From the NCBI GenBank assembly GCA_023382575.1, contig JAHDWC010000013.1:1-39012 (forward strand): a stretch of 39,012 nt of DNA. Reading direction: 5' to 3'. A model generated the notes under the pieces. The model saw only the letters and a list, made by a program, of their open reading frames with translations. It did no database searches and was not told where the DNA came from. This document shows positions 12,618 through 39,012 of the stretch, piece after piece. The number at the start of each line of letters is the position of its first letter. Position 1 is the stretch's first letter. This DNA comes from Anaerolineales bacterium (lineage in GTDB: Bacteria > Chloroflexota > Anaerolineae > Anaerolineales > Villigracilaceae). The translations under genes were made by a program, and so were the position numbers.

Positions 12618-14312
12618 CTACTTGCCGCCGCCTCCAATTTCGACTGTGACCTGTGCGCCGTGAATTTGGGCACCCAGCTCGCGGACAGCGGTTCTGAGAA
12701 TGGCTTCAATATCCGTTCCTGCGCCAATGCGCTGTGAGATCTCACCGATGACATGTTCTTTCGTTGCGCGTCTCTGGCTCTCTTCGAGCAGACGGGCATT
12801 ATCCAATGCCAAAGCAGCCCGGTCTGAAACTGCCTGCACCAGTGAGACCTCATCCTCGGTCCAGGTGCGGCTGAGTTGCGCCGCTTCAATATGAATCACG
12901 CCGATGACCTGATCTCGGAGTTTGACTGGAACTGCAAGAGTCGGCGCACCACCCCCTGAAGGCTGACTTTGCACCACAGTCTCGCCATATGTGAGCGCGC
13001 GCTTCAAAACCGAGTTGGACTCGGGTAATCCGCTGGAGGCGGAAATACTTCCATCTGGCTGGAAGGAGTAGCCGCCATGACGTCCCTTTTGTATGAGACG
13101 CAGGTTTCTGGATTCCGCGAAGCGATTTTCTTCGAGGAATTTCATGTTCTGGATCAAGATGGCAATCTGGTTTGCCAATGCGCTTAATGTATCGATGTCG
13201 TCATTGCTGAACGCGGAGGGATTCAAACTTTGCACGTCGAGCACGCCGACAACGCTGCTGCCATATTTCAACGGAAGCGAAATCTCTGAGCGGGTTTCGG
13301 GAAGGTCGGGGTTGTTGAAGAACACCACATCGGCGCTTGTATCGAGCGCAATGCGCGGACGACCCGTCAGCGCAACATAGCCCACAATGCCTGTGCCACC
13401 CACTTTCAGTTGATGACGACGCGCAAGCATTTGCTGTCCGCCTTTGCTGTTTGTGGCGCGCAGCACGGCGAACTCACGCCGATCATCCATTAAAAAGATA
13501 CCGACATGATAAAAATCGAGTTTGCTGCTGATAAGCTTTGCGGCGCGGGTCAGCAGGTCTTCCGATTTTTCGTCGATATTTGCCATCATCTCCTGAGAGA
13601 TTTCGGAGACTGCCAGCAATCGTGCCGCCTTGATCTTCAACTGTTCATTGGCTTTGTTCAGGTCTTTCGTGCGCGCTTCCACCTGACCTTCGAGCGTACG
13701 GTTGACCTCTTCAAGCCGCTGATTGGTAATGATCTGCTCGTTGCGGTTTTTGACCGCAATATTTAACAGAGTGCGCTGCCTTTGGAAAACCGCCAACATT
13801 GCGCTCATGATGGTGATAAAGAAAAAGGTATTTAACGCGATGTATTCGCCCGTCGTGCCGAAGCGATTCGGGAGGATGTTATTTACTTCTGCCAGCCCGG
13901 TCCCGATAAAAAGCAGGGTCATGAAAACCCCAAGGGAAATCGCGGGCATGCTATTACGCCTGCCATATACATTCGCCAGCAGGAAGAGACCCAGATTGCC
14001 CATCCACAACAGGTCGTGGACGCCATCCCCTTCGAGGATGGTAACCAGACAAAGTCCCACCGATGTGACCCACGGGAAAAGGATGAGGTAATTGAAGCGT
14101 CCGCGAATGACTTGAAGCAGACTGAAAACGGCCGTCGCATTCGTAATGACCGAGGCAATGATAACAATGGGGTTGCGATACGCCAGCAAAGCAAGCGCTG
14201 TGGAGATAAAACCAAGCCCAAGCGTGATGATCGCCTCGGCGCGTTGCCCCGTCTCTTCGCCTGGTCGGTCTTTGAATAAATACTCGCGTAGATTAAATTC
14301 GTTGTTCTGCAT
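12618..14312 (-). CDS. Multi-TM GAF membrane protein without output domain
   Basis: A 564-residue member of the short class. Several hydrophobic segments (about six) occupy residues 28-178. A coiled coil (EEVNRTLEGQVEARTKDL) precedes a full GAF at roughly 230-395 with FYHVGIF, VVFFNNPDLPETRSE and GVLDVQS. The ANSEGG motif is ATNSKGGQQML here. The spacer lacks the clear Trp seen in most paralogues and reads KGRHGGYSFQPDGS. A half-GAF at about 455-510 (KLRDQVIGVIHI, ALDNARLLEESQ) and the GAF-start tail end the protein. No output domain is present. It follows the 573-residue paralogue by 29 nt, the largest gap between two of the sensor genes, and precedes the 985-residue gene by 8 nt. Function beyond membrane-associated signal reception is not visible. 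Confidence 0.88.
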   Translation of the reverse strand: MQNNEFNLREYLFKDRPGEETGQRAEAIITLGLGFISTALALLAYRNPIVIIASVITNATAVFSLLQVIRGRFNYLILFPWVTSVGLCLVTILEGDGVHDLLWMGNLGLFLLANVYGRRNSMPAISLGVFMTLLFIGTGLAEVNNILPNRFGTTGEYIALNTFFFITIMSAMLAVFQRQRTLLNIAVKNRNEQIITNQRLEEVNRTLEGQVEARTKDLNKANEQLKIKAARLLAVSEISQEMMANIDEKSEDLLTRAAKLISSKLDFYHVGIFLMDDRREFAVLRATNSKGGQQMLARRHQLKVGGTGIVGYVALTGRPRIALDTSADVVFFNNPDLPETRSEISLPLKYGSSVVGVLDVQSLNPSAFSNDDIDTLSALANQIAILIQNMKFLEENRFAESRNLRLIQKGRHGGYSFQPDGSISASSGLPESNSVLKRALTYGETVVQSQPSGGGAPTLAVPVKLRDQVIGVIHIEAAQLSRTWTEDEVSLVQAVSDRAALALDNARLLEESQRRATKEHVIGEISQRIGAGTDIEAILRTAVRELGAQIHGAQVTVEIGGGGK

Positions 14313-31849: not shown

Positions 31850-34297
31850 ATGAGCGGAAAACAGCCCAGCCTTGAACGCGCTTCACAATTGACGGCAAGT
31901 AACTTGCGGAATGTGGTTAAGACCATTTCCGCGCATCAGCTTTCGCGCCTTTCCCTGCCAGAGGTGGAAGCCGTGGTGCAATTGGTCTCGAAGATCATGC
32001 CGGCTGGCAATGTGCCTGGCATGATCCTAAATGGATTGGCGCGCCTGCCAGGTCGGCGCATCCCTGCGCAGAAACTCAAGCAAGATGTCAACGCCTTATT
32101 CAGCGGCGTGGAACAAATCCTTGACCAGGCAGTGTATGGCGCATTTTTTGCCGGTCCAGCCGCTGTACTGTGGGGATATCAAAACCTGCTTAAGTTGGCA
32201 GGCAAAGACCCTGAAACTGCTTTTCCAGAGGGTCCGTGGCAGTTTTATGTCGATTATGCCTTGCGGGAAGATACTGCCCGTCACACCAATGAGACACATG
32301 GCTTTGATACCATCCTCAAACAACATAACATCCGCCTCGATAAAACCGATCGCTTGACCGCTTGGTTCATGGCGGCAGTGACCTGTTTGCATCAATACCC
32401 GGCTTTGCTGGAGAATGAATGGCGCGAGCGCGTTTCCATTTCGATCCTTGAGGATGTGCTGCGCGACTCATCCGGCAAAGCGATTCAATCCAAACGCGTC
32501 CATCGGGAGTGGGAGCTGATCCGTCCATTTCGCCGCGACGAAGATGGGGCATTTTACGACTATCCTACATATCGTCGCAGAAAGTTCGATCAATTCCTCC
32601 AAAGTAAACTTCAAGAGTTGTCAGATTCCGCCCGAGACGAGTGGGAGGCGCGGCTTCAGTCCGCGCTTCAACAAGACCTGTCCGCCTATCAACGTCAGAT
32701 GTCGATTGTGGCGTATTTGGAGCCTGGTCCGTACGGCGAGACGCGTGTGCCCATCAACTTAAGCGACGCCAAGATCGGCATCATCCACAATGACGGTTAT
32801 TATCTGCTGCCAGTCTGTGAAGATGGTACCGCCAAGCCGCTGAGTGTGTTGACCGCACGTGCGCAGATCGAATCCCTGTTGACTTCGAGTCCAGCAGCCC
32901 CTGCGCAGATTTCAGCGTTGGCAAGAATTCATCGCTCGGCATTGGCGAATTTGCGCTCCAAACTCAACCCAATGCTGGTGACCGATCTCGATAATTTGAA
33001 ATTCGCACCCATCATTATCTCCACAGATGTCCGCTCGCGAGTGCTGCCGCTCTCCGAGTTACGTCAGACCGAACGCGGTGTCGGCTCACATGCGTTGACA
33101 CTCTTCGATACCGGTGAAACGATTGTCTTTGACCAATCTCATATTTTCTTTGATGGCGCCTGGGGCACCGCACTTTCTGAAATGATGACCAATGAGGCGC
33201 TTTCATGGGCAAACTATCTAAGTATGTTGCCCGCCTCCCCCACCCCATCACAGACACGACTCTACACATCGTTGACTTTGCAGTTGACGCCAGATGACTT
33301 GGAATTGGTCAAGCACGCGCCGCAAGTCATGCAGGAAGCAGGCGCTGAAACCGACAAAGTGGACTTGCGCACCTGTCTCTCTTTACGAAAGAGCTTCAAA
33401 CAGCGCAACGATCTGATCGAGATCACCATCAACGACCTGCTAGTGTTATATCGCGCCATCCATGCTGCGACGTACATCCCTTCGCCTGATCTAGTGAAGG
33501 AGATCCAGAAGTTTGCTGCGACCAACCCAGATGCCGCCGCCAAGCTTCGACAAGTGGTGGAAGAGGGCAGTCGTACCAACCCTGCCATTCTTATTCCAAT
33601 GGATGCGAGCCTCAAATCGCCGCGTGACCGGGTCTATCCGCTCAATGTGGAAGTGCCGCTTCATGACTTGGATCTACTCACCTTGCACGCTCGCACATTG
33701 AAACTATTGGACGCATACGAAACTGCCTCCGGCGCCGACCGGACGGATCTGTTCACCAGCTTCAACCAGTTCCAAAAGTTGTACCTTGCCACGCTGGCCG
33801 GTTTTGGCGCTTATTTGAGTCGTGCCAAAGAAATGGCGGCGCAGGGAGAGAGCCCCTCCGCGGGCGTGCTTAAGTTGATGGCGCATCTGCCTGTACCCGT
33901 CCAACGCCTGCTGGATAAGATTCCCGAACGCTTTGAAGTATTGAACAATCTCATCAAAGGACGGGAAGTCTTCTCGAATGTTGGTGCTGTCGTCCCATCC
34001 AGCACATTGACGCGCTTCATGACCGCGAAGGATGACAATACGCAGAAACAGCTTGCCTGGGGTGTCATCACTGATTCGAAATCCGTCATGCGTATTCATC
34101 TGCGGGATTTCCGTCCGCATGTGGCGAATTTGCTCTCACTCGGACGCAAAGACCTCGCCAATTTGATCACACAGGATTATCTCGACGCCTATGCCAATGG
34201 TTTCAATCGCTATGTGCGCGACCTTTCCCGTATTACAATTGCACGTAGAGAAACCATGACTAACAAACCCAAGACCGGCAAAAGGCCCCTGAAATAA
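31850..34297 (+). CDS. Large protein of unknown function coupled to a Ser/Thr kinase (815 aa)
   Basis: Soluble, without signal peptide or clear membrane segment. The N-terminal 120 residues are helical, with a hydrophobic stretch GAFFAGPAAVLWGYQNLL at about 98-115. The middle is alpha/beta, and the C-terminus (about 640-800) is helical and ends in a basic tail. It contains HIFFDG at 431-436 followed by AWGTALSEMM. This HxxxDG pattern is the catalytic signature of CoA-dependent acyltransferases (carnitine acyltransferase, condensation and chloramphenicol acetyltransferase superfamily), and VFDQSHIFFDGAWG recalls the carnitine/choline acyltransferase active-site strand. The match is a motif only, so acyltransferase activity is a hypothesis. 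Its stop overlaps the kinase start (TAATG), indicating translational coupling, so it may be a substrate or partner of the kinase. I do not recognise the family as a whole. Confidence 0.88.
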   Translation: MSGKQPSLERASQLTASNLRNVVKTISAHQLSRLSLPEVEAVVQLVSKIMPAGNVPGMILNGLARLPGRRIPAQKLKQDVNALFSGVEQILDQAVYGAFFAGPAAVLWGYQNLLKLAGKDPETAFPEGPWQFYVDYALREDTARHTNETHGFDTILKQHNIRLDKTDRLTAWFMAAVTCLHQYPALLENEWRERVSISILEDVLRDSSGKAIQSKRVHREWELIRPFRRDEDGAFYDYPTYRRRKFDQFLQSKLQELSDSARDEWEARLQSALQQDLSAYQRQMSIVAYLEPGPYGETRVPINLSDAKIGIIHNDGYYLLPVCEDGTAKPLSVLTARAQIESLLTSSPAAPAQISALARIHRSALANLRSKLNPMLVTDLDNLKFAPIIISTDVRSRVLPLSELRQTERGVGSHALTLFDTGETIVFDQSHIFFDGAWGTALSEMMTNEALSWANYLSMLPASPTPSQTRLYTSLTLQLTPDDLELVKHAPQVMQEAGAETDKVDLRTCLSLRKSFKQRNDLIEITINDLLVLYRAIHAATYIPSPDLVKEIQKFAATNPDAAAKLRQVVEEGSRTNPAILIPMDASLKSPRDRVYPLNVEVPLHDLDLLTLHARTLKLLDAYETASGADRTDLFTSFNQFQKLYLATLAGFGAYLSRAKEMAAQGESPSAGVLKLMAHLPVPVQRLLDKIPERFEVLNNLIKGREVFSNVGAVVPSSTLTRFMTAKDDNTQKQLAWGVITDSKSVMRIHLRDFRPHVANLLSLGRKDLANLITQDYLDAYANGFNRYVRDLSRITIARRETMTNKPKTGKRPLK

Positions 34298-36030
34298 TGA
34301 GAGATCCAATCGTTGGAATGCAGCTTGCAAATTTTCGTGTGGAGCACTTGCTTGGTCAAGGCGGCATGGCGTCTGTTTACTTTGGACAGGATGTCAAACT
34401 ACATCGTCCCGTAGCGATCAAAGTGCTGGATAAGCGCTACAAGAATCATCCTGCCTACGCGGCACGCTTCGTCAACGAAGCGCGGATGATGGCGAAGTGG
34501 CATCACGAAAATATCATCCAGATCTATTATTCCGATGACGATCAGGGTTTTCCTTATTACGTCATGGAATATGTCAACGGGCAAGACCTGGCGGAAATCC
34601 TTAATCTGTATCAGGAAGAGGGAAAGTTGATGCCGATCACGGAAGTATTGCGCATCGGCAATGCAGTGGCGAATGCTCTCGACTACGCCCATCGACATGG
34701 CGTGGTCCATCGCGATGTGAAGCCGCCGAACATTCTCATCTCGAATGATGGACGTGTATTGCTCGGTGACTTTGGCATGGCGCTCGAAGTGCGGGATGGC
34801 TCGCAGGGCAATATCTTTGGGTCGCCTCACTATATTTCGCCGGAACAAGCCCGCAGGTCGGCAGATGCGAGCGCGCAATCGGACATTTACTCATTGGGTG
34901 TCATCCTGTATGAAGTGCTAACCGGTTCCCTGCCTTTCAATGGCGACGACCCAACTGAGATCGCGCTTCAACACATCTCACAGCTTCCGCCGCCGCCGCG
35001 CAGTATCAACCCAGACATTAGCCCTACGGTCGAAGCGGTCATCCTCAAGGCGCTGCAAAAAGATCCGCGTGAACGTTATCAGAGTGGCGCGAAATTAATT
35101 TCGGCGCTCGAAGATGCATTCAAAGCATCTGGCTCGACCAAAAAGACCACACTTCCGCCTCTGCCAGTGGGCGTGCCAACCATTCGGCGCAGTGATCTTT
35201 CCATCGAGCAAATTTCAAAACGCCCCGCCCCCAAGAAGGCTGAGGCGCAGCCCAAGGCAAATGTACGCTTGCCTGCCACAGTCCACGCCAAACCTGCCCG
35301 TCGGCGCAGTGGATGGTTCATCCTTTTGTTGTTGCTGCTTTTATTGGGAGCAGGCGGATATTATTTTTACAGCACCGGGATCAACCCACTGAGCCTGTTG
35401 CCCATCCCCACTTTGACGATTTCGCTTCCCTCTTCGCCGGAAGCTGTTCAAGCGACTGAAACTTCAACCAACCTTCCGGTTGTCGCAGAAGAAGCGTCGC
35501 CCTCTCCCACTGTACTGCCGACGGAGACATCCATCCCACAAACGCCTACAGTTGAGGCGACACCGACCGTCGAGCCATCGCCCACAGTCCAGGCTGAGCC
35601 GACGGTGAAATATCCTGACGGCAATCATTACACCCTCTTCTACAATGAGACCAGTTTCTTTATCCTCAACCGTTCTTACGCACGCAGAAGCATTTCCGGG
35701 TTTGTATTCGAGCGCCTGAGCAGCGAAGATGGCACTCCAATGGAGGATGTCTTCCAAGCCTATCAATGGGAAACGCGTTCGGTCGATTACCTGCCGCGTA
35801 ATTTCTGTGCGAACATCACTATCTTTGGTGACCAGGACCCACCTTATCTCAATCCGTCTGGCTGTTCGGCAGGCATCACAAGCACCATCCAGCCGCGGTT
35901 TGACCGTCCTGGCAATATCCTGTTCTGGACTCCCAAAGAAGGCTCGAGTCAATTTCGCGTGCTATGGCTGGGCGAGGAAGTTGCCCGCTGTGATATTGAT
36001 CAGACTTTCTGTGATATCTTCATCCCATAG
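34297..36030 (+). CDS. PknB-like membrane Ser/Thr protein kinase with extracytoplasmic domain
   Basis: A 577-residue kinase. The cytoplasmic kinase domain is at about 13-275: glycine loop GQGGMASVY at 20-28, ATP Lys42 (AIK), Glu61 in helix C, catalytic Asp140 (HRDVKPPN), DFG at 158-160 and SPEQA at 181-185. All catalytic residues are intact. A basic Pro/Ala juxtamembrane linker (280-337) leads to a single TM at 339-356, a Thr/Pro-rich stalk (375-438, repeated PTVE and SPTV) and a C-terminal extracytoplasmic domain of about 135 residues with four cysteines (504, 523, 565, 572) that could form two disulfides. There are no PASTA repeats, so the ligand is not peptidoglycan by that criterion. The start overlaps the upstream stop by 1 nt (TAATG), so it is co-expressed with the 815-residue protein. 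Confidence 0.93.
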   Translation: MRDPIVGMQLANFRVEHLLGQGGMASVYFGQDVKLHRPVAIKVLDKRYKNHPAYAARFVNEARMMAKWHHENIIQIYYSDDDQGFPYYVMEYVNGQDLAEILNLYQEEGKLMPITEVLRIGNAVANALDYAHRHGVVHRDVKPPNILISNDGRVLLGDFGMALEVRDGSQGNIFGSPHYISPEQARRSADASAQSDIYSLGVILYEVLTGSLPFNGDDPTEIALQHISQLPPPPRSINPDISPTVEAVILKALQKDPRERYQSGAKLISALEDAFKASGSTKKTTLPPLPVGVPTIRRSDLSIEQISKRPAPKKAEAQPKANVRLPATVHAKPARRRSGWFILLLLLLLLGAGGYYFYSTGINPLSLLPIPTLTISLPSSPEAVQATETSTNLPVVAEEASPSPTVLPTETSIPQTPTVEATPTVEPSPTVQAEPTVKYPDGNHYTLFYNETSFFILNRSYARRSISGFVFERLSSEDGTPMEDVFQAYQWETRSVDYLPRNFCANITIFGDQDPPYLNPSGCSAGITSTIQPRFDRPGNILFWTPKEGSSQFRVLWLGEEVARCDIDQTFCDIFIP

Positions 36031-36051
36031 AATTTAATCTTAAACCTATAC

Positions 36052-36081
36052 TTGACACAGTCGCATTTGCGGGTGTAAACT
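36052..36081 (+). promoter_or_regulatory. Promoter of the ABC-exporter leader
   Basis: TTGACA (36052-36057), 18-nt spacer, TAAACT (36076-36081). The predicted transcription start is about 36088, a few nt before the outer stem of the leader RNA. Confidence 0.75.
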
Positions 36082-36091
36082 CGGCACGTTG

Positions 36092-36213
36092 AAAGACCTA
36101 TCCCTAACGAAAGGAGCGCACTCTTGATGTACATCTCAATCTTCTACATTCTCCCCGATGCAGTTGGCAAATTGCCTTCTTGGAGTGCGCCTATTGACCG
36201 AAACTAGGTCTTT
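36092..36213 (+). promoter_or_regulatory. Structured attenuator leader of the ABC exporter operon
   Basis: Two nested perfect stems are visible. The outer is AAAGACCTA (36092-36100) with TAGGTCTTT (36205-36213), followed by a short T-run. The inner is GCGCACTC (36116-36123) with GAGTGCGC (36183-36190). A 26-codon ORF starts just after the 5' inner arm and its stop is the first triplet of the outer 3' arm. The inner 3' arm (GTGCGCC, 36185-36191) is also perfectly complementary to GGCGCAC (36241-36247) inside the downstream terminator. The two pairings exclude each other, so the arm can act as an anti-terminator. Confidence 0.7.
36127..36207 (+). CDS. Putative 26-residue leader peptide
   Basis: ATG at 36127 with AAGGAG 10 nt upstream; an in-frame TTG one codon earlier has a 7-nt spacing and is an alternative. 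The peptide starts MYISIFYILPDAVG and ends in APIDRN; it is hydrophobic and aromatic at its N-terminus. Its coding region spans the whole inner hairpin, and its TAG coincides with the start of the outer 3' arm. It sits between a promoter and an intrinsic terminator upstream of a heterodimeric ABC exporter. This is the arrangement known for ribosome-mediated attenuation (Bacillus subtilis bmrB before bmrCD). Translation is not proven. Confidence 0.6.
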   Translation: MYISIFYILPDAVGKLPSWSAPIDRN

Positions 36214-36233
36214 TTCTGTCCCTTGTTGACTTT

Positions 36234-36268
36234 GGGCTGTGGCGCACGCGCTACAGCCCTTTTGTTTT
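36234..36268 (+). terminator. Intrinsic terminator between leader and ABC exporter
   Basis: The stem GGGCTGT with ACAGCCC is extended by G-T, G-C and C-G pairs to about 10 bp, followed by TTTTGTTTT. It is located 23 nt before the exporter start codon and upstream of its GGAG site, so it must be read through for expression. Its upper 5' arm can be captured by the leader (see the attenuator). Confidence 0.9.
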
Positions 36269-36291
36269 AATAATTTGTTCGGAGAACCACC

Positions 36292-38124
36292 ATGTCAGAT
36301 ACAACCTCCCCTACTTTTGACTTCCGTGATGCCTTGCACACGAACCGTCTCGCTGGTCTGTGGCGCATGATGACGGACTTCCGCGTGTCCTACCTCGCGG
36401 CGACCCTCGCGCTGGCTGTCTCAGCGTTGGCGAAAACCTCTGTTTACCTGCTGTTACGCTTCTTTGCAGACGATGTGCTGGCGCATGGAAAAATGATCGG
36501 CACGACCATGACCCAAACCTTCCTTTTTATCGGATTGGGCTTCATTGGCTTGGCGTTCATCGAAGGCGGCGGCGCGTTCCTTTCGGGACGACTGGCTGCT
36601 TACACTGCCGAAGGCATCACCCGCCGATTGCGTGACTTCCTCTTTGACCACATCCAGCGGCTGAGCTTTTCGTATCACAGTGCCACGCCGACGGGTGATC
36701 TGATCGAACGCGTCACCTCGGATGTGGATGCGCTGCGCCGCTTTTTCTCGGAGCAAGCCATTGGTGTGGGACGCATCATCCTGTTGTTCTTCATCAACTG
36801 GGCGGCGATCCTCTACATCAACGTGTAATTGGGTCTGCTGTCTGTGGTGGTCATTCCGCCGATTCTGTGGATCTCGCTTTGGTTCTTCAAAAAAGTGACG
36901 AAGGCCTACGAAGATTATCAGGCACAGGAAGCGGTACTTTCCACAACCCTGCAGGAAAACCTGACCGGCGTGCGGGTGGTCAAGGCCTTCGCACGGCAGG
37001 ATTACGAGAAGGAAAAATTCGACAAGGATAACTGGCTCAAGTACATCAAGGGCAAGTTCCTGTTGTTGATGCATTCGCTCTTCTGGCCGCTTTCGGACAT
37101 TGTGCTTGGCGCGCAGATGCTCTTTGGATTCATCTACGCCGCCTTCATGGCTATTGACGGCAGGATCTCGGTCGGTGACTATGTGGCATATGTTGGCTTG
37201 GTCGTGTGGCTGATCTTCCCGATCCGCAATCTAGGACGTGTCATCGTGCAGACTTCGACGGGTATGGTCTCATATCAACGCCTGATGGACATCACCAAGC
37301 AGGCGCGCGAAGACCTCGATGGCGGGGCTGTCCAGCCGACAGGTCCGGTGCGAGGCGAGATCGAATTCCGCAATGTCTCGTTCATGTATTCCGATGGGAC
37401 GCATGATGTCATCAAGGATATTTCGTTCCACATCAAGCCGGGACAATCCATTGCGCTGCTTGGCTCGACCGGTTCCGGTAAGACCTCGTTGGTCAACTTG
37501 TTGCCGCGTTTCCATGAGTACACTGGCGGGCAGATCCTGCTCGATGGTGTAGAACTGCGCGATTATTCGCGCAAGTATCTGCGTGAGCAGATCGGCATTG
37601 TGCAGCAGGAGCCCTTCTTGTTCAGTCGTTCGATCCGCGAGAACATTTTGTATGGCGTGGGTCGACGCGTGACTCAAGAAGAGATCGAAGCCGCCGCCAA
37701 AGCCGCCGCTGTACACGATGTGATCGCCTCCTTCCCAGACGGCTACAACACTGTCGTCGGCGAGAAGGGCGTGACCCTTTCCGGTGGGCAGAAGCAGCGC
37801 GTGACCATTGCGCGGACGATCCTGAAGAATCCAAAGATCCTGATCCTCGACGACTCCACCTCAGCCGTGGACACCGAGACCGAAGCCTCGATCCGTAAGG
37901 CGTTGGATGACTTGATGGAGCACCGTACCACTTTCATCATCGCACACCGCATCCAATCTGTGATGCGAGCCGACTTGATCCTGGTGCTCGATAAAGGCAG
38001 GGTCATCCAAAAAGGCAGCCATGAAGAACTGCTCGCGCAATTTAGCGGCATGTACCGCAAGATCTACGACATCCAGACAAGGATCGATGAAGAGCTGGAA
38101 ATGGAAATTGCAAGAGCGAATTGA
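36292..38124 (+). pseudogene. ABC exporter half-transporter (TM287/BmrC type) interrupted by an in-frame TAA
   Basis: One frame of 610 sense codons is split by a single TAA at 36826-36828 (178 codons before, 431 after). The first part encodes TM1, TM2 and TM3. The second, which continues in the same frame without a gap, encodes TM4-TM6 and the nucleotide-binding domain: Walker A GSTGSGKT (391-398), signature LSGGQ (496-500), Walker B followed by Asp instead of catalytic Glu (LILDDSTSAVD), and H-loop IAHRI. The Asp is the degenerate-site form known from TM287 and BmrC in heterodimeric multidrug exporters. Start ATG 36292 has GGAG upstream. Alignment to the partner (INWRLAL versus INV-stop-LGL) places the stop at a usual Lys/Arg position, so AAA to TAA is the simplest explanation. 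Sequencing error, a real nonsense mutation or read-through are possible. Confidence 0.85.
36826..36828 (+). other. In-frame TAA inside the ABC exporter gene
   Basis: The stop lies between TM3 and TM4. Both flanks are fully conserved ABC-exporter sequence in the same frame, without any frameshift. The triplet after it is TTG with no Shine-Dalgarno sequence, so independent re-initiation is unlikely. Confidence 0.9.
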
Positions 38125-38166: not shown

Positions 38167-39012
38167 ATGTCTGAAGAATTATACGAACTCGAAGAAGAAG
38201 AACATACATCACAGATCACCTTCCCCGTTTTCAAGCGCATTTTGGGAATCATCAAACCGCACTGGAAATGGGTGCTGGGTTTTCTCATCACCATCGGTCT
38301 GGTCTCCGGGTTGGACGCGTATTTCACATTCCTGAACAAGCAGATCGTGGACCAGGGGATCAACCTCAAAGATACAGCCGTGTTGACGCGCATCGCGTGG
38401 ATCTATGGAACGTTCCTGCTGTTGCAATCGGCGTTCGTGTTCACGTTCATTTACCTCGCCGGGGTATTGGGCGAACGCGTGCAATATGATTTGCGTAAAC
38501 TGCTCTTTAACCACTTGCAGGATCTGTCACTTTCGTACTACGCCCAAAACGCGGTGGGACGCTTGATCGCACGCGTCACATCAGACACGGGGCGCGTCTC
38601 GGAACTGGTGACCTGGGGCATCGTGGACAGCGTCTGGGCGTTGATGAACATCATCACCTCGCTGACGTTCATGGCGATCATCAACTGGCGATTGGCACTG
38701 ATCGTTTCGATCATCATCCCGGTCATGGTCTTTGTAGCGACGAAATTCCAGAAATACATTCTGGTGGAGTTCCGTCAAACCCGCCGTACGAACAGCAAGA
38801 TCACCGGCGCGTACAACGAGAACATTCAAGGTGTGCGCGTGGTCAAGGCGCTCGGACGGGAAGATGCCAACCTGGTCGAATTCCAGGGGCTGACCACCCG
38901 CATGTACAAGGCATCGTATCGCGCGGCATGGCTTTCGGCGCTCTTCCTCCCCACCGTGCAGATCATCGCCGCCATCGCGCTGGGCGCCATCGTCTGGTAC
39001 GGCGGGGCGCAG
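38167..39012 (+). CDS. ABC exporter partner subunit (TM288/BmrD type), C-terminus beyond the window
   Basis: 282 codons are visible from ATG 38167, preceded by GGAG 8 nt upstream. An acidic N-terminus (ELEEEE) precedes TM1 at about 34-52, TM2 at 74-96, TM3 at 150-172, TM4 at 175-192 and TM5 at 256-280. The coupling-helix region GVRVVKALGRED at 222-233 matches GVRVVKAFARQD in the first subunit. The nucleotide-binding domain is outside the window. As the first subunit has the degenerate ATPase site, this one is expected to carry the canonical catalytic Glu; that can be checked beyond the edge. It probably exports drugs or lipids from the membrane as a heterodimer. The 42-nt gap to the first gene holds only the palindromic element and the ribosome site. 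Confidence 0.92.
   Translation, partial: MSEELYELEEEEHTSQITFPVFKRILGIIKPHWKWVLGFLITIGLVSGLDAYFTFLNKQIVDQGINLKDTAVLTRIAWIYGTFLLLQSAFVFTFIYLAGVLGERVQYDLRKLLFNHLQDLSLSYYAQNAVGRLIARVTSDTGRVSELVTWGIVDSVWALMNIITSLTFMAIINWRLALIVSIIIPVMVFVATKFQKYILVEFRQTRRTNSKITGAYNENIQGVRVVKALGREDANLVEFQGLTTRMYKASYRAAWLSALFLPTVQIIAAIALGAIVWYGGAQ

Follow-up and report, generated by a model that had tools for sequence, protein, structure and literature searches.

Organization of the leader and the exporter locus

The window, by which we mean the whole 39,012-nt stretch of DNA that was analyzed, closes with two adjacent forward-strand genes that Pfam identifies as type-IV ABC exporter subunits. The first subunit (positions 36292 to 38124) carried Asp at the catalytic Walker B position; only the start of the second (38167 to 39012) was present, the gene continuing beyond the window end, and its orthologue at locus L032 had the canonical catalytic Glu. 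The Walker B pair was thus Asp-Asp in subunit A of both the window and L032 and Asp-Glu in L032 subunit B, and one degenerate plus one canonical catalytic site in adjacent subunits is the heterodimer pattern. The first-pass annotation, made from sequence alone, had called this a heterodimeric multidrug exporter; the heterodimer held, and “multidrug” transport is inferred from the protein family only. No NCBIfam name lay above its cutoff among the 25 matches considered for the exporter, and the best solved relatives of the 431-residue part following an in-frame stop were ABCB-type exporters.

That in-frame TAA (36826 to 36828), within the first subunit, was compared across 61 loci. The best hit had Lys at this position in 34 cases, Glu in 23, Thr in 1, and Arg in 1, and the TAA was present only in two overlapping loci of the window's own genome; it is either a nonsense change or an assembly error. 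Directly upstream of the leader lay a Ser/Thr protein kinase gene (34297 to 36030), and a homologue with a very similar start occupied the same place in L032.

The leader under study spanned approximately positions 36052 to 36268 of the forward strand. It opened with a promoter (36052 to 36081) in which an 18-bp spacer separated a −35 hexamer, TTGACA (36052 to 36057), from a −10 hexamer, TAAACT (36076 to 36081). The scan for promoter-like sites was weak evidence when taken alone (2 in the leader region versus 1.1 in shuffles). A promoter of the form TTGACA-16/19-TA(A/G/C)ACT was found upstream in 47 of 48 aligned leaders (the window's included), and TTGACn-16/19-TAnnnT preceded 77 of 80 family elements and 67 of 80 order and class elements, compared with 0 of 160 shuffled upstream sequences.

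In the window (36051 to 36081) and in most exporter-A leaders of the genus, the promoter read TTGACAC...GGTGTAAACT, an imperfect inverted repeat spanning both hexamers, which was absent from the exporter-B and GNAT leaders looked at. The repeat may be an operator, or this may merely be a strong promoter.

A Shine-Dalgarno (SD) sequence, AAAGGAG (36110 to 36116), preceded a 26-codon open reading frame (ORF) on the forward strand (36127 to 36207; MYISIFYILPDAVGKLPSWSAPIDRN), with ATG at 36127 and stop codon TAG at 36205 to 36207; an in-frame TTG at 36124 is a possible alternative start. The SD columns were mostly invariant or nearly so in the alignment of 48 leaders (A1). Its last base was also the first base of arm 1, GCGCACTC (36116 to 36123), the 5′ arm of a putative anti-antiterminator, which sat between the SD and the start codon at −11 to −4 from the AUG. 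Arm 2, GAGTGCGCC (36183 to 36191), lay near the end of the ORF and could pair with either arm 1 or arm 3. The stop codon was enclosed in a hairpin, GACC-GAAACTA-GGTC (36196 to 36210), that was conserved in relatives. Ahead of the exporter gene, with 26 nt between the stop codon of the ORF and the stem, was an intrinsic terminator (36234 to 36268) consisting of an 11-bp stem with a 4-nt loop (36234 to 36259; −20.8 kcal/mol, z = −5.0) and a T tract, TTTTGTTTT (36260 to 36268). Arm 3, GGCGCAC (36241 to 36247), comprised the loop-proximal half of the terminator 5′ strand together with the loop and was the antiterminator partner of arm 2. The promoter, the 26-codon ORF with AAGGAG, and the strong terminator before the exporter had all been proposed in the first-pass annotation, and all three held. 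The whole leader folded better than 200 of 200 shuffles (z = −3.3), whereas the leader without the terminator folded more weakly (z = −1.7, with 10 of 200 shuffles equally good).

Two further pairings were considered as parts. A small GGC/GCC hairpin within the ORF (36166 to 36176) was kept mainly in type-I leaders; it was 81.9% paired in A1, with two-sided changes in 2 of 3 pairs, and was rejected as a general part because its pairing across the family alignment (A2) was only 52.4%. A long pairing of AAAGACCTA (near 36093) with TAGGTCTTT as a first terminator was rejected because the upstream partner was not conserved in relatives; the conserved part of this region was only the small GACC/GGTC hairpin at the stop codon.

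Compared with Rfam 15, the window leader had no match at the gathering score, the best being suhB (20.8 bits versus a gathering score of 41); this comparison was limited to the window leader and included no other copies. Across the whole window, a tRNA was the sole Rfam 15 match at or above gathering.

Distribution of the element in Anaerolineae

A 516-base query containing the leader and the exporter start was matched in 36 of 61 near genomes, own genome included; a few of the matches spanned the exporter alone. Forty-eight nonduplicate leaders, including that of the window, were aligned (A1); ten sequence repeats had been taken out, and L056 had been discarded as a false “repeat” (the match was too short). 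Insertions and deletions within the ORF preserved the frame. A covariance model built from these 48 leaders (R1) was widened stepwise to R2 and then R3.

Within the family, R1 matched 133 of 150 genomes at an E value of 0.01, often with two or three copies per genome. The widened models matched at least 110 of 201 genomes of the order (57 of 84 genera; E value, 0.01) and at least 91 of 298 genomes of the class (70 of 186 genera; E value, 0.001), which named relatives identify as Anaerolineae. Genome counts were taken as lower bounds because searches over 40 genomes filter more strictly and score few candidates. In a phylum-wide sample of 301 genomes, all 23 matched genomes were inside the class and none was matched outside it; at least 38 of the 301 belonged to the class, leaving up to 263 genomes outside the class without a match. 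An exact pattern of arm 2 plus the stop-codon hairpin was rejected as too strict for the class, since it was found in 18 of 396 genomes, with three matches outside the family (G086, G096, and G240). The element is an RNA family found across the whole class rather than a single leader.

Besides the window's leader on contig C13, its genome contained two further copies at an E value of 0.01, one before a second exporter pair (contig C3) and one before a GNAT acetyltransferase operon (C5). A fourth copy preceded a RIO-domain kinase gene on C136 (33.5 bits; E value, 8.8e−7 in 45,577 bases); it was missed by the genome-wide searches and found when the C136 locus itself was searched.

For closer comparison, 80 family loci were chosen from among the matches, mostly scoring below the type-I leaders and including three repeats (L179 = L053, L183 = L041, and L204 = L182), along with 40 order and 40 class loci. 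The family loci minus repeats plus the 48 leaders gave 125 distinct family elements. Alignment A2 comprised 100 of 128 loci (76 of the 80 family loci and 24 of the 48 leaders). L270, a short element, was excluded from alignments A3 and A4. The reverse-strand row L311 was among the 101 class rows (A4) used for covariation and was excluded from class-wide arm matching, counts of C in arm 2, folding, and ORF and promoter counts. All elements were chosen by similarity to the models, and the sequences are not independent events.

Conservation of the leader ORF

With an ORF required to start 8 to 25 nt after an SD motif and to run past arm 2, the frame was open past arm 2 in 125 of 125 distinct family elements, 124 of them with ATG; over this stretch, the other two frames were open in 19 and 28. 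The stop codon of 124 of the 125 followed the GTG of arm 2 by 14 to 23 nt, although the start codon lay anywhere from 45 to 79 nt ahead of arm 2. In the order and class set, the ORF was kept in 76 of 79 elements and ranged from 16 to 34 codons, with more spread stop positions; two of the three misses (L329 and L338) had an ORF ending within arm 2.

The peptide itself showed little sign of constraint. In codons 2 to 8, no clear third-position excess was found in the 48 type-I leaders (differences of 0.46, 0.58, and 0.48 at positions 1, 2, and 3), and little or none was found in type II (0.66, 0.65, and 0.69). The reading frame across arm 2 can also shift among family elements: seven exporter-B leaders (L164, L172, L173, L174, L190, L207, and L230) used another frame there, encoding EVRP or EVRL rather than RSAP. 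Because the frame differs in these leaders, the conserved C-terminal peptide follows from the RNA arm and not from selection on the peptide. The absence of a third-position excess and the shifting frame through arm 2 indicate that the act of translation, rather than the peptide, is likely what is conserved.

Covariation of two alternative helices

The structure formed by arm 1:arm 2, the ORF hairpin, the stop-codon hairpin, and the terminator had 95.8% standard pairs in A1, and 7 of 26 pairs had changed on both sides. Of the 26 modeled pairs, two-sided changes affected 22 in A2 (covariation score of 0.460 versus 0.184 in shuffles) and 24 in A4 (0.497 versus 0.175). The terminator stem had changed on both sides at all 11 pairs in A2. 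The stop-codon hairpin was paired in 98.4%, 92.5%, and 78.7% of cases in A1, A2, and A4, respectively, with two-sided changes at all four pairs in both A2 and A4. For arm 1:arm 2, the pairs with two-sided changes numbered 2 of 8 in A1, 4 of 8 in A2, and 6 of 8 in A4.

The alignments were fitted to arm 1:arm 2 and the terminator, not to the alternative helix, arm 2:arm 3. In the 48 type-I leaders, arm 2:arm 3 was 96.7% paired, with no two-sided change, so wider sampling was needed. Among the 100 family elements, it was 92.5% paired, with eight two-sided cells and a covariation score of 0.151, each of these values being reached by 0 of 500 shuffles; slid versions of the helix scored 0.007 or less. 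Two other measures of arm 2:arm 3 were not above shuffles, namely the number of pairs with a two-sided change (2; reached by 128 of 500) and the number of further pair types (8; reached by 113 of 500), and the inner part of the helix (columns 170 to 174) had no two-sided pair change.

Arm matching, computed class-wide as energies without column-wise alignment, supported both helices. Arms taken from the same element paired better than permuted arms for arm 2:arm 3 (−15.04 versus −12.50 kcal/mol) and for arm 1:arm 2 (−14.49 versus −12.05 kcal/mol), with 0 of 5,000 permutations as good in either case, whereas the control pairing of arm 1 with arm 3, which have the same sense, gained nothing from matching (4,806 of 5,000 permutations at least as good). 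A helix of 7 bp or longer joined arms 2 and 3 in 81 of 100 class elements compared with a mean of 55.7 when permuted; helices shorter than 6 bp numbered 11 of 100 for arm 2:arm 3 and 8 of 100 for arm 1:arm 2. In the family set, with permutation restricted to elements of the same gene type, the matched value was reached by 0 of 5,000 permutations for arm 1:arm 2 and by 1 of 5,000 for arm 2:arm 3. Two of the 125 family elements (L038 and L047) lacked an automatic arm 2 call, and the automatic call was off in a few rows (e.g., L185).

A single variable position illustrates the double constraint. Family-wide, 8 rows had C in arm 2. Arm 1 had G in all 7 of those that carried a letter at this position, and none of the 8 had A in arm 3 (6 had G, 1 had T, and 1 had a gap); where arm 2 had T, arm 3 had A in 72 of 92 (Fisher test, P = 1.7e−5, with sequences that are not independent). 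The class-wide pattern was looser: in 10 rows with C in arm 2, arm 1 had G in 9 and A in 1, and the aligned arm 3 had G in 6, T in 3, and C in 1. Arm 2 was mutated in L050.

Both alternative helices covary, with part of the arm 2:arm 3 measures not above shuffles, and the anti-antiterminator and antiterminator are mutually exclusive, as supported by covariation and by the matched-arm tests with their control. The proposal that GTGCGCC (36185 to 36191) pairs either with the 5′ leader arm or with GGCGCAC (36241 to 36247) therefore held: both helices were conserved and covarying, and each arm 2 specifically favored the arm 1 and arm 3 of the element it came from. Loss of the small ORF or of arm complementarity in relatives would have refuted the proposal. 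In the family the ORF was present in 125 of 125 distinct elements, and matched arms paired better than permuted ones.

Folding of the nascent and complete leader

Structures were predicted for nascent RNA cut at arm 3 and for the complete leader, with and without masking of arm 1, which was done by masking everything more than 18 nt upstream of the arm 2 region; no shuffled control was included. When arm 1 was masked in nascent RNA, at least four arm 2:arm 3 pairs were present in the MFE structure of 97 of 100 family and 99 of 100 class elements. Without masking, nascent RNA formed arm 1:arm 2 in 59 family and 49 class elements and arm 2:arm 3 in 37 and 48 (each of 100). The complete, unmasked leader formed the terminator in 100 of 100 family and 99 of 100 class elements. 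When arm 1 was masked in the complete leader, the terminator was still the MFE structure in 98 of 100 family and 82 of 100 class elements, arm 2:arm 3 forming only in 2 and 18; the window leader with arm 1 removed likewise folded into the terminator, not arm 2:arm 3. Because the terminator remains the MFE structure of the complete leader despite a masked arm 1, antitermination must be kinetic. Even with arm 2 paired to arm 3, the outer part of the terminator stem (7 bp in the window) remains available and could form. In the window, unmasked nascent RNA already preferred arm 2:arm 3, so the OFF state in the absence of translation depends on folding order.

NusG pausing was rejected as a component because its motif, TTNTTT, was not enriched among 123 spacers (31 observed versus 34.9 expected) and was absent from the window spacer.

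Genes downstream of the element

For 160 fetched elements, which include one repeat, we took the first downstream gene (same strand, within 1 kb) to which a small blastp library could give a name. In 154 of the 160, the named gene fell in a few families: type-IV exporters of the window's type (43) and of a second type or similar (52), GNAT acetyltransferases (23), ABC-2 exporters (17), RsgA (8), RIO-domain kinases (8), RtcB (2), and ABC-F (1). Of the other six elements, four could not be classified and two lacked any gene of 90 residues in the fetched DNA. An unnamed ORF intervened between the element and the named gene in some cases (e.g., L307 and L295).

Family names rest on Pfam and NCBIfam for examples only. 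Three RsgA proteins passed TIGR00157, the ABC-F protein passed ribo_prot_ABC_F (449.7 versus a cutoff of 380), and seven RIO-domain proteins and one RtcB protein passed Pfam cutoffs. A reverse search, in which genes were identified by Pfam in 60 genomes of the class, gave a same-strand copy of the element ahead of 6 of 14 RIO-domain genes and 4 of 30 RsgA genes examined; two of the RsgA copies scored weakly (22.0 and 19.6 bits). Among the six RIO loci, three (L346, L349, and L354) were already in the class sample (as L326, L320, and L343), and no matched background of other genes stands behind either fraction. An extra RsgA gene outside the 30 (G081:C615:13857) had an R3 match on the same strand at 13309 to 13446.

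Genes for the RNA ligase RtcB followed the element in two distant genomes (L212, 358 to 1779; L307, 60 to 1481, with a short unclassified ORF between in L307). This context is a possible hint of RNA repair within the same response.

A putative ribosome-sensing transcription attenuator

The element is likely a ribosome-sensing transcription attenuator and one copy of a class-wide RNA family, a reading to which we assign a probability of roughly 0.8. The parts, their conservation, the covariation of both helices, the narrow spacing from stop codon to arm 2, and the gene contexts were observed; where ribosomes sit, which way regulation runs, and that drugs inhibiting translation are the main inducers in nature are all inferred.

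In the proposed mechanism, the leader would be transcribed from its own promoter and a ribosome would load on the leader ORF. During normal translation, the ribosome at the stop codon would cover arm 2 as arm 3 emerges, and the terminator would form (OFF). A standard ribosome footprint places a ribosome at the stop codon over roughly 36187 to 36217, which would hide most of arm 2 and leave the terminator free. In the absence of a loaded ribosome, arm 2, which is transcribed well ahead of arm 3, would fold on arm 1, and the terminator would again form (OFF). A ribosome held at the start or within roughly the first dozen codons would hide or separate arm 1 and leave arm 2 free. While the 3′ strand of the terminator is still unmade, arm 2 could then pair with the loop-proximal part of its 5′ strand, blocking nucleation of the hairpin, and RNA polymerase would read into the downstream genes (ON). 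Antitermination would on this account be a race, putatively decided by arm 2 taking up the loop-closing pairs at which the terminator must nucleate. The original claim that a stalled ribosome frees arm 2 and breaks the terminator thus held in part, only as a kinetic, cotranscriptional claim.

That translation inhibitors switch the exporter on, as also claimed in the first-pass annotation, is inferred and not shown. Drug exporters, GNAT acetyltransferases, ABC-F, RsgA, and RIO-domain kinases are families that fit a sensor of impaired translation. Given the position of arm 1 (−11 to −4 relative to the AUG), the strongest induction is predicted for drugs that trap ribosomes on or close to the start codon (lincosamides and pleuromutilins). 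Overall, the structure and logic put forward in that annotation are supported, and induction by translation inhibitors remains an inference.

Alternative explanations

The alternative that survives best, and which remains possible, is that the attenuator senses a general slowing of translation, such as a shortage of amino acids or charged tRNA, with drugs being only incidental inducers. The ORF is kept while its peptide sequence is not under clear selection; the RsgA, RIO-domain, and RtcB genes serve ribosome or RNA care and not resistance; and the whiB7 uORF is reported to respond to amino acid starvation too (PMC12121999). Against this alternative, no run of one regulatory codon was seen by eye in the leader peptides, and the downstream genes are mostly exporters and acetyltransferases, not biosynthesis genes.

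It is unlikely that each leader type encodes a drug-specific arrest peptide (with Ile-Phe or basic motifs, for example) that, like ErmCL or MsrDL, halts the ribosome at one set codon. ErmCL is a drug-specific arrest peptide that stalls the ribosome at a fixed codon. By eye, many type-I peptides had Ile-Phe near codons 5 and 6 and Pro near codon 9, and many type-II peptides were basic, features that resemble MYLIFM of MsrDL and the +x+ motif (PMC10314930). However, an arrest peptide was rejected as the general mechanism because codons 2 to 8 of neither type showed a clear third-position excess. The sequences also differ widely across the class, and a stall at codons 8 and 9 would, given the usual ribosome footprint, leave arm 1 just upstream of the ribosome and not beneath it.

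A riboswitch or protein-binding leader that acts independently of translation, with an incidental ORF, is very unlikely. The strong conserved structure and the conservation of the arms as nucleotides even where the frame across arm 2 shifts are in its favor, but an ORF with an SD and a narrowly spaced stop was found in every one of the family elements while the other frames were seldom open, the window leader matched no Rfam riboswitch, and the target genes are metabolically unrelated. An ordinary constitutive leader with a terminator and no switching, to which the near-universal full-length MFE terminator (100 of 100 and 99 of 100 elements) might point, is likewise very improbable, since the outer stem turns over whereas the arm 3 bases in the loop stay conserved, covarying with arm 2.

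Relation to known attenuators

The preferred reading, a ribosome-sensing attenuator, has its nearest counterpart in the vmlR leader of Bacillus subtilis, in which a uORF lies within an anti-antiterminator hairpin and is followed by an antiterminator and a terminator, with a hairpin between, and in which stalling on the uORF favors read-through (PMC9226507). The two systems share an anti-antiterminator that encloses the uORF (here arm 1 precedes the start codon and arm 2 lies near the stop), an antiterminator, a terminator, and an intervening hairpin. They differ in that the vmlR uORF has three codons (MIN) compared with 26 in the window and 16 to 34 in the order and class set, in that vmlR has both a hairpin that hides the gene's own SD and a NusG pause at TTNTTT, a motif missing from the window spacer and unenriched elsewhere, and in that one architecture recurs before many genes in Anaerolineae.

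The bmrB leader of bmrCD, also of B. subtilis, shares ribosome-mediated transcription attenuation before a heterodimeric multidrug ABC exporter (PMC4191407). Its ORF has 53 codons with the terminator inside the coding region (PMC4191407), whereas in the window the stop codon (36205 to 36207) precedes a terminator that begins at 36234, outside the ORF. The suggestion that the present leader differs from that of Bacillus in sequence and phylum held for phylum (Chloroflexota), no sequence comparison having been made with bmrB, and the scope proved wider, extending to a class-wide family.

Attenuators of the trp type combine a leader ORF with alternating arms (1:2, 2:3, and terminator). The window element has the same three-arm alternation and leader ORF, but unlike the trp type it has no regulatory codon run, its arm 1 precedes the ORF, and its arm 3 is the loop-proximal part of the terminator. 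The MsrDL/mefA leaders have in common with it a leader peptide and an intrinsic terminator before an efflux pump or ABC-F gene (PMC10314930); macrolides induce read-through there, and the specific arrest peptide MYLIFM is central (PMC10314930), whereas the Anaerolineae leader peptide is variable. In the WhiB7/WblC regulon of Actinobacteria, a uORF attenuator that responds to several classes of ribosome drugs controls a multiantibiotic resistance response (PMC12121999, PMC11550727). There, one attenuator acts through a transcription factor, whereas the Anaerolineae attenuator apparently stands in cis before each operon.

No title or abstract returned by searches of the open-access literature (from which subscription papers are mostly missing) reported such an element in Chloroflexota. 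The passages of PMC2864571 that mention Chloroflexi, two in number, concern the Chloroflexi-1 motif and the pan motif; the study of Dar et al. (2016) reportedly used term-seq.

A possible translation-stress regulon

We lean, by a small margin, toward a bolder reading, in which one ancient RNA attenuator was copied in cis before each operon to form an Anaerolineae translation-stress regulon. Its targets would be efflux pumps, acetyltransferases, ABC-F protection, RsgA of the ribosome maturation type together with bacterial RIO-domain kinase, and RtcB. Each target would read the state of the ribosome through its own leader, without a master regulator of the WhiB7 type, and the antiterminator would cap the loop-proximal half of the terminator. 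If this is true, the element marks uncharacterized downstream genes as candidates for ribosome protection or repair.

Antibiotic-sensing uORF attenuators have, to our knowledge, been described only as single cases before single genes or operons. What is new is the scale: a class-wide RNA family with one architecture, common to resistance-type and ribosome maturation genes, that apparently places pumps, acetyltransferases, and ribosome-care genes under direct ribosome control. It ties RsgA and RIO-domain kinases to bacterial translation stress, and it suggests that these Chloroflexota wire their intrinsic response to antibiotics through cis-acting RNA. The covariance models allow a culture-free search for translation-stress genes in environmental genomes.

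In the RIO-kinase leaders of the window's genus (L355, 787 to 923; L356, 2509 to 2649), the SD itself appeared to be paired (GGAGGC with GCCTCC), apparently in a shifted version of the arm 1:arm 2 helix.
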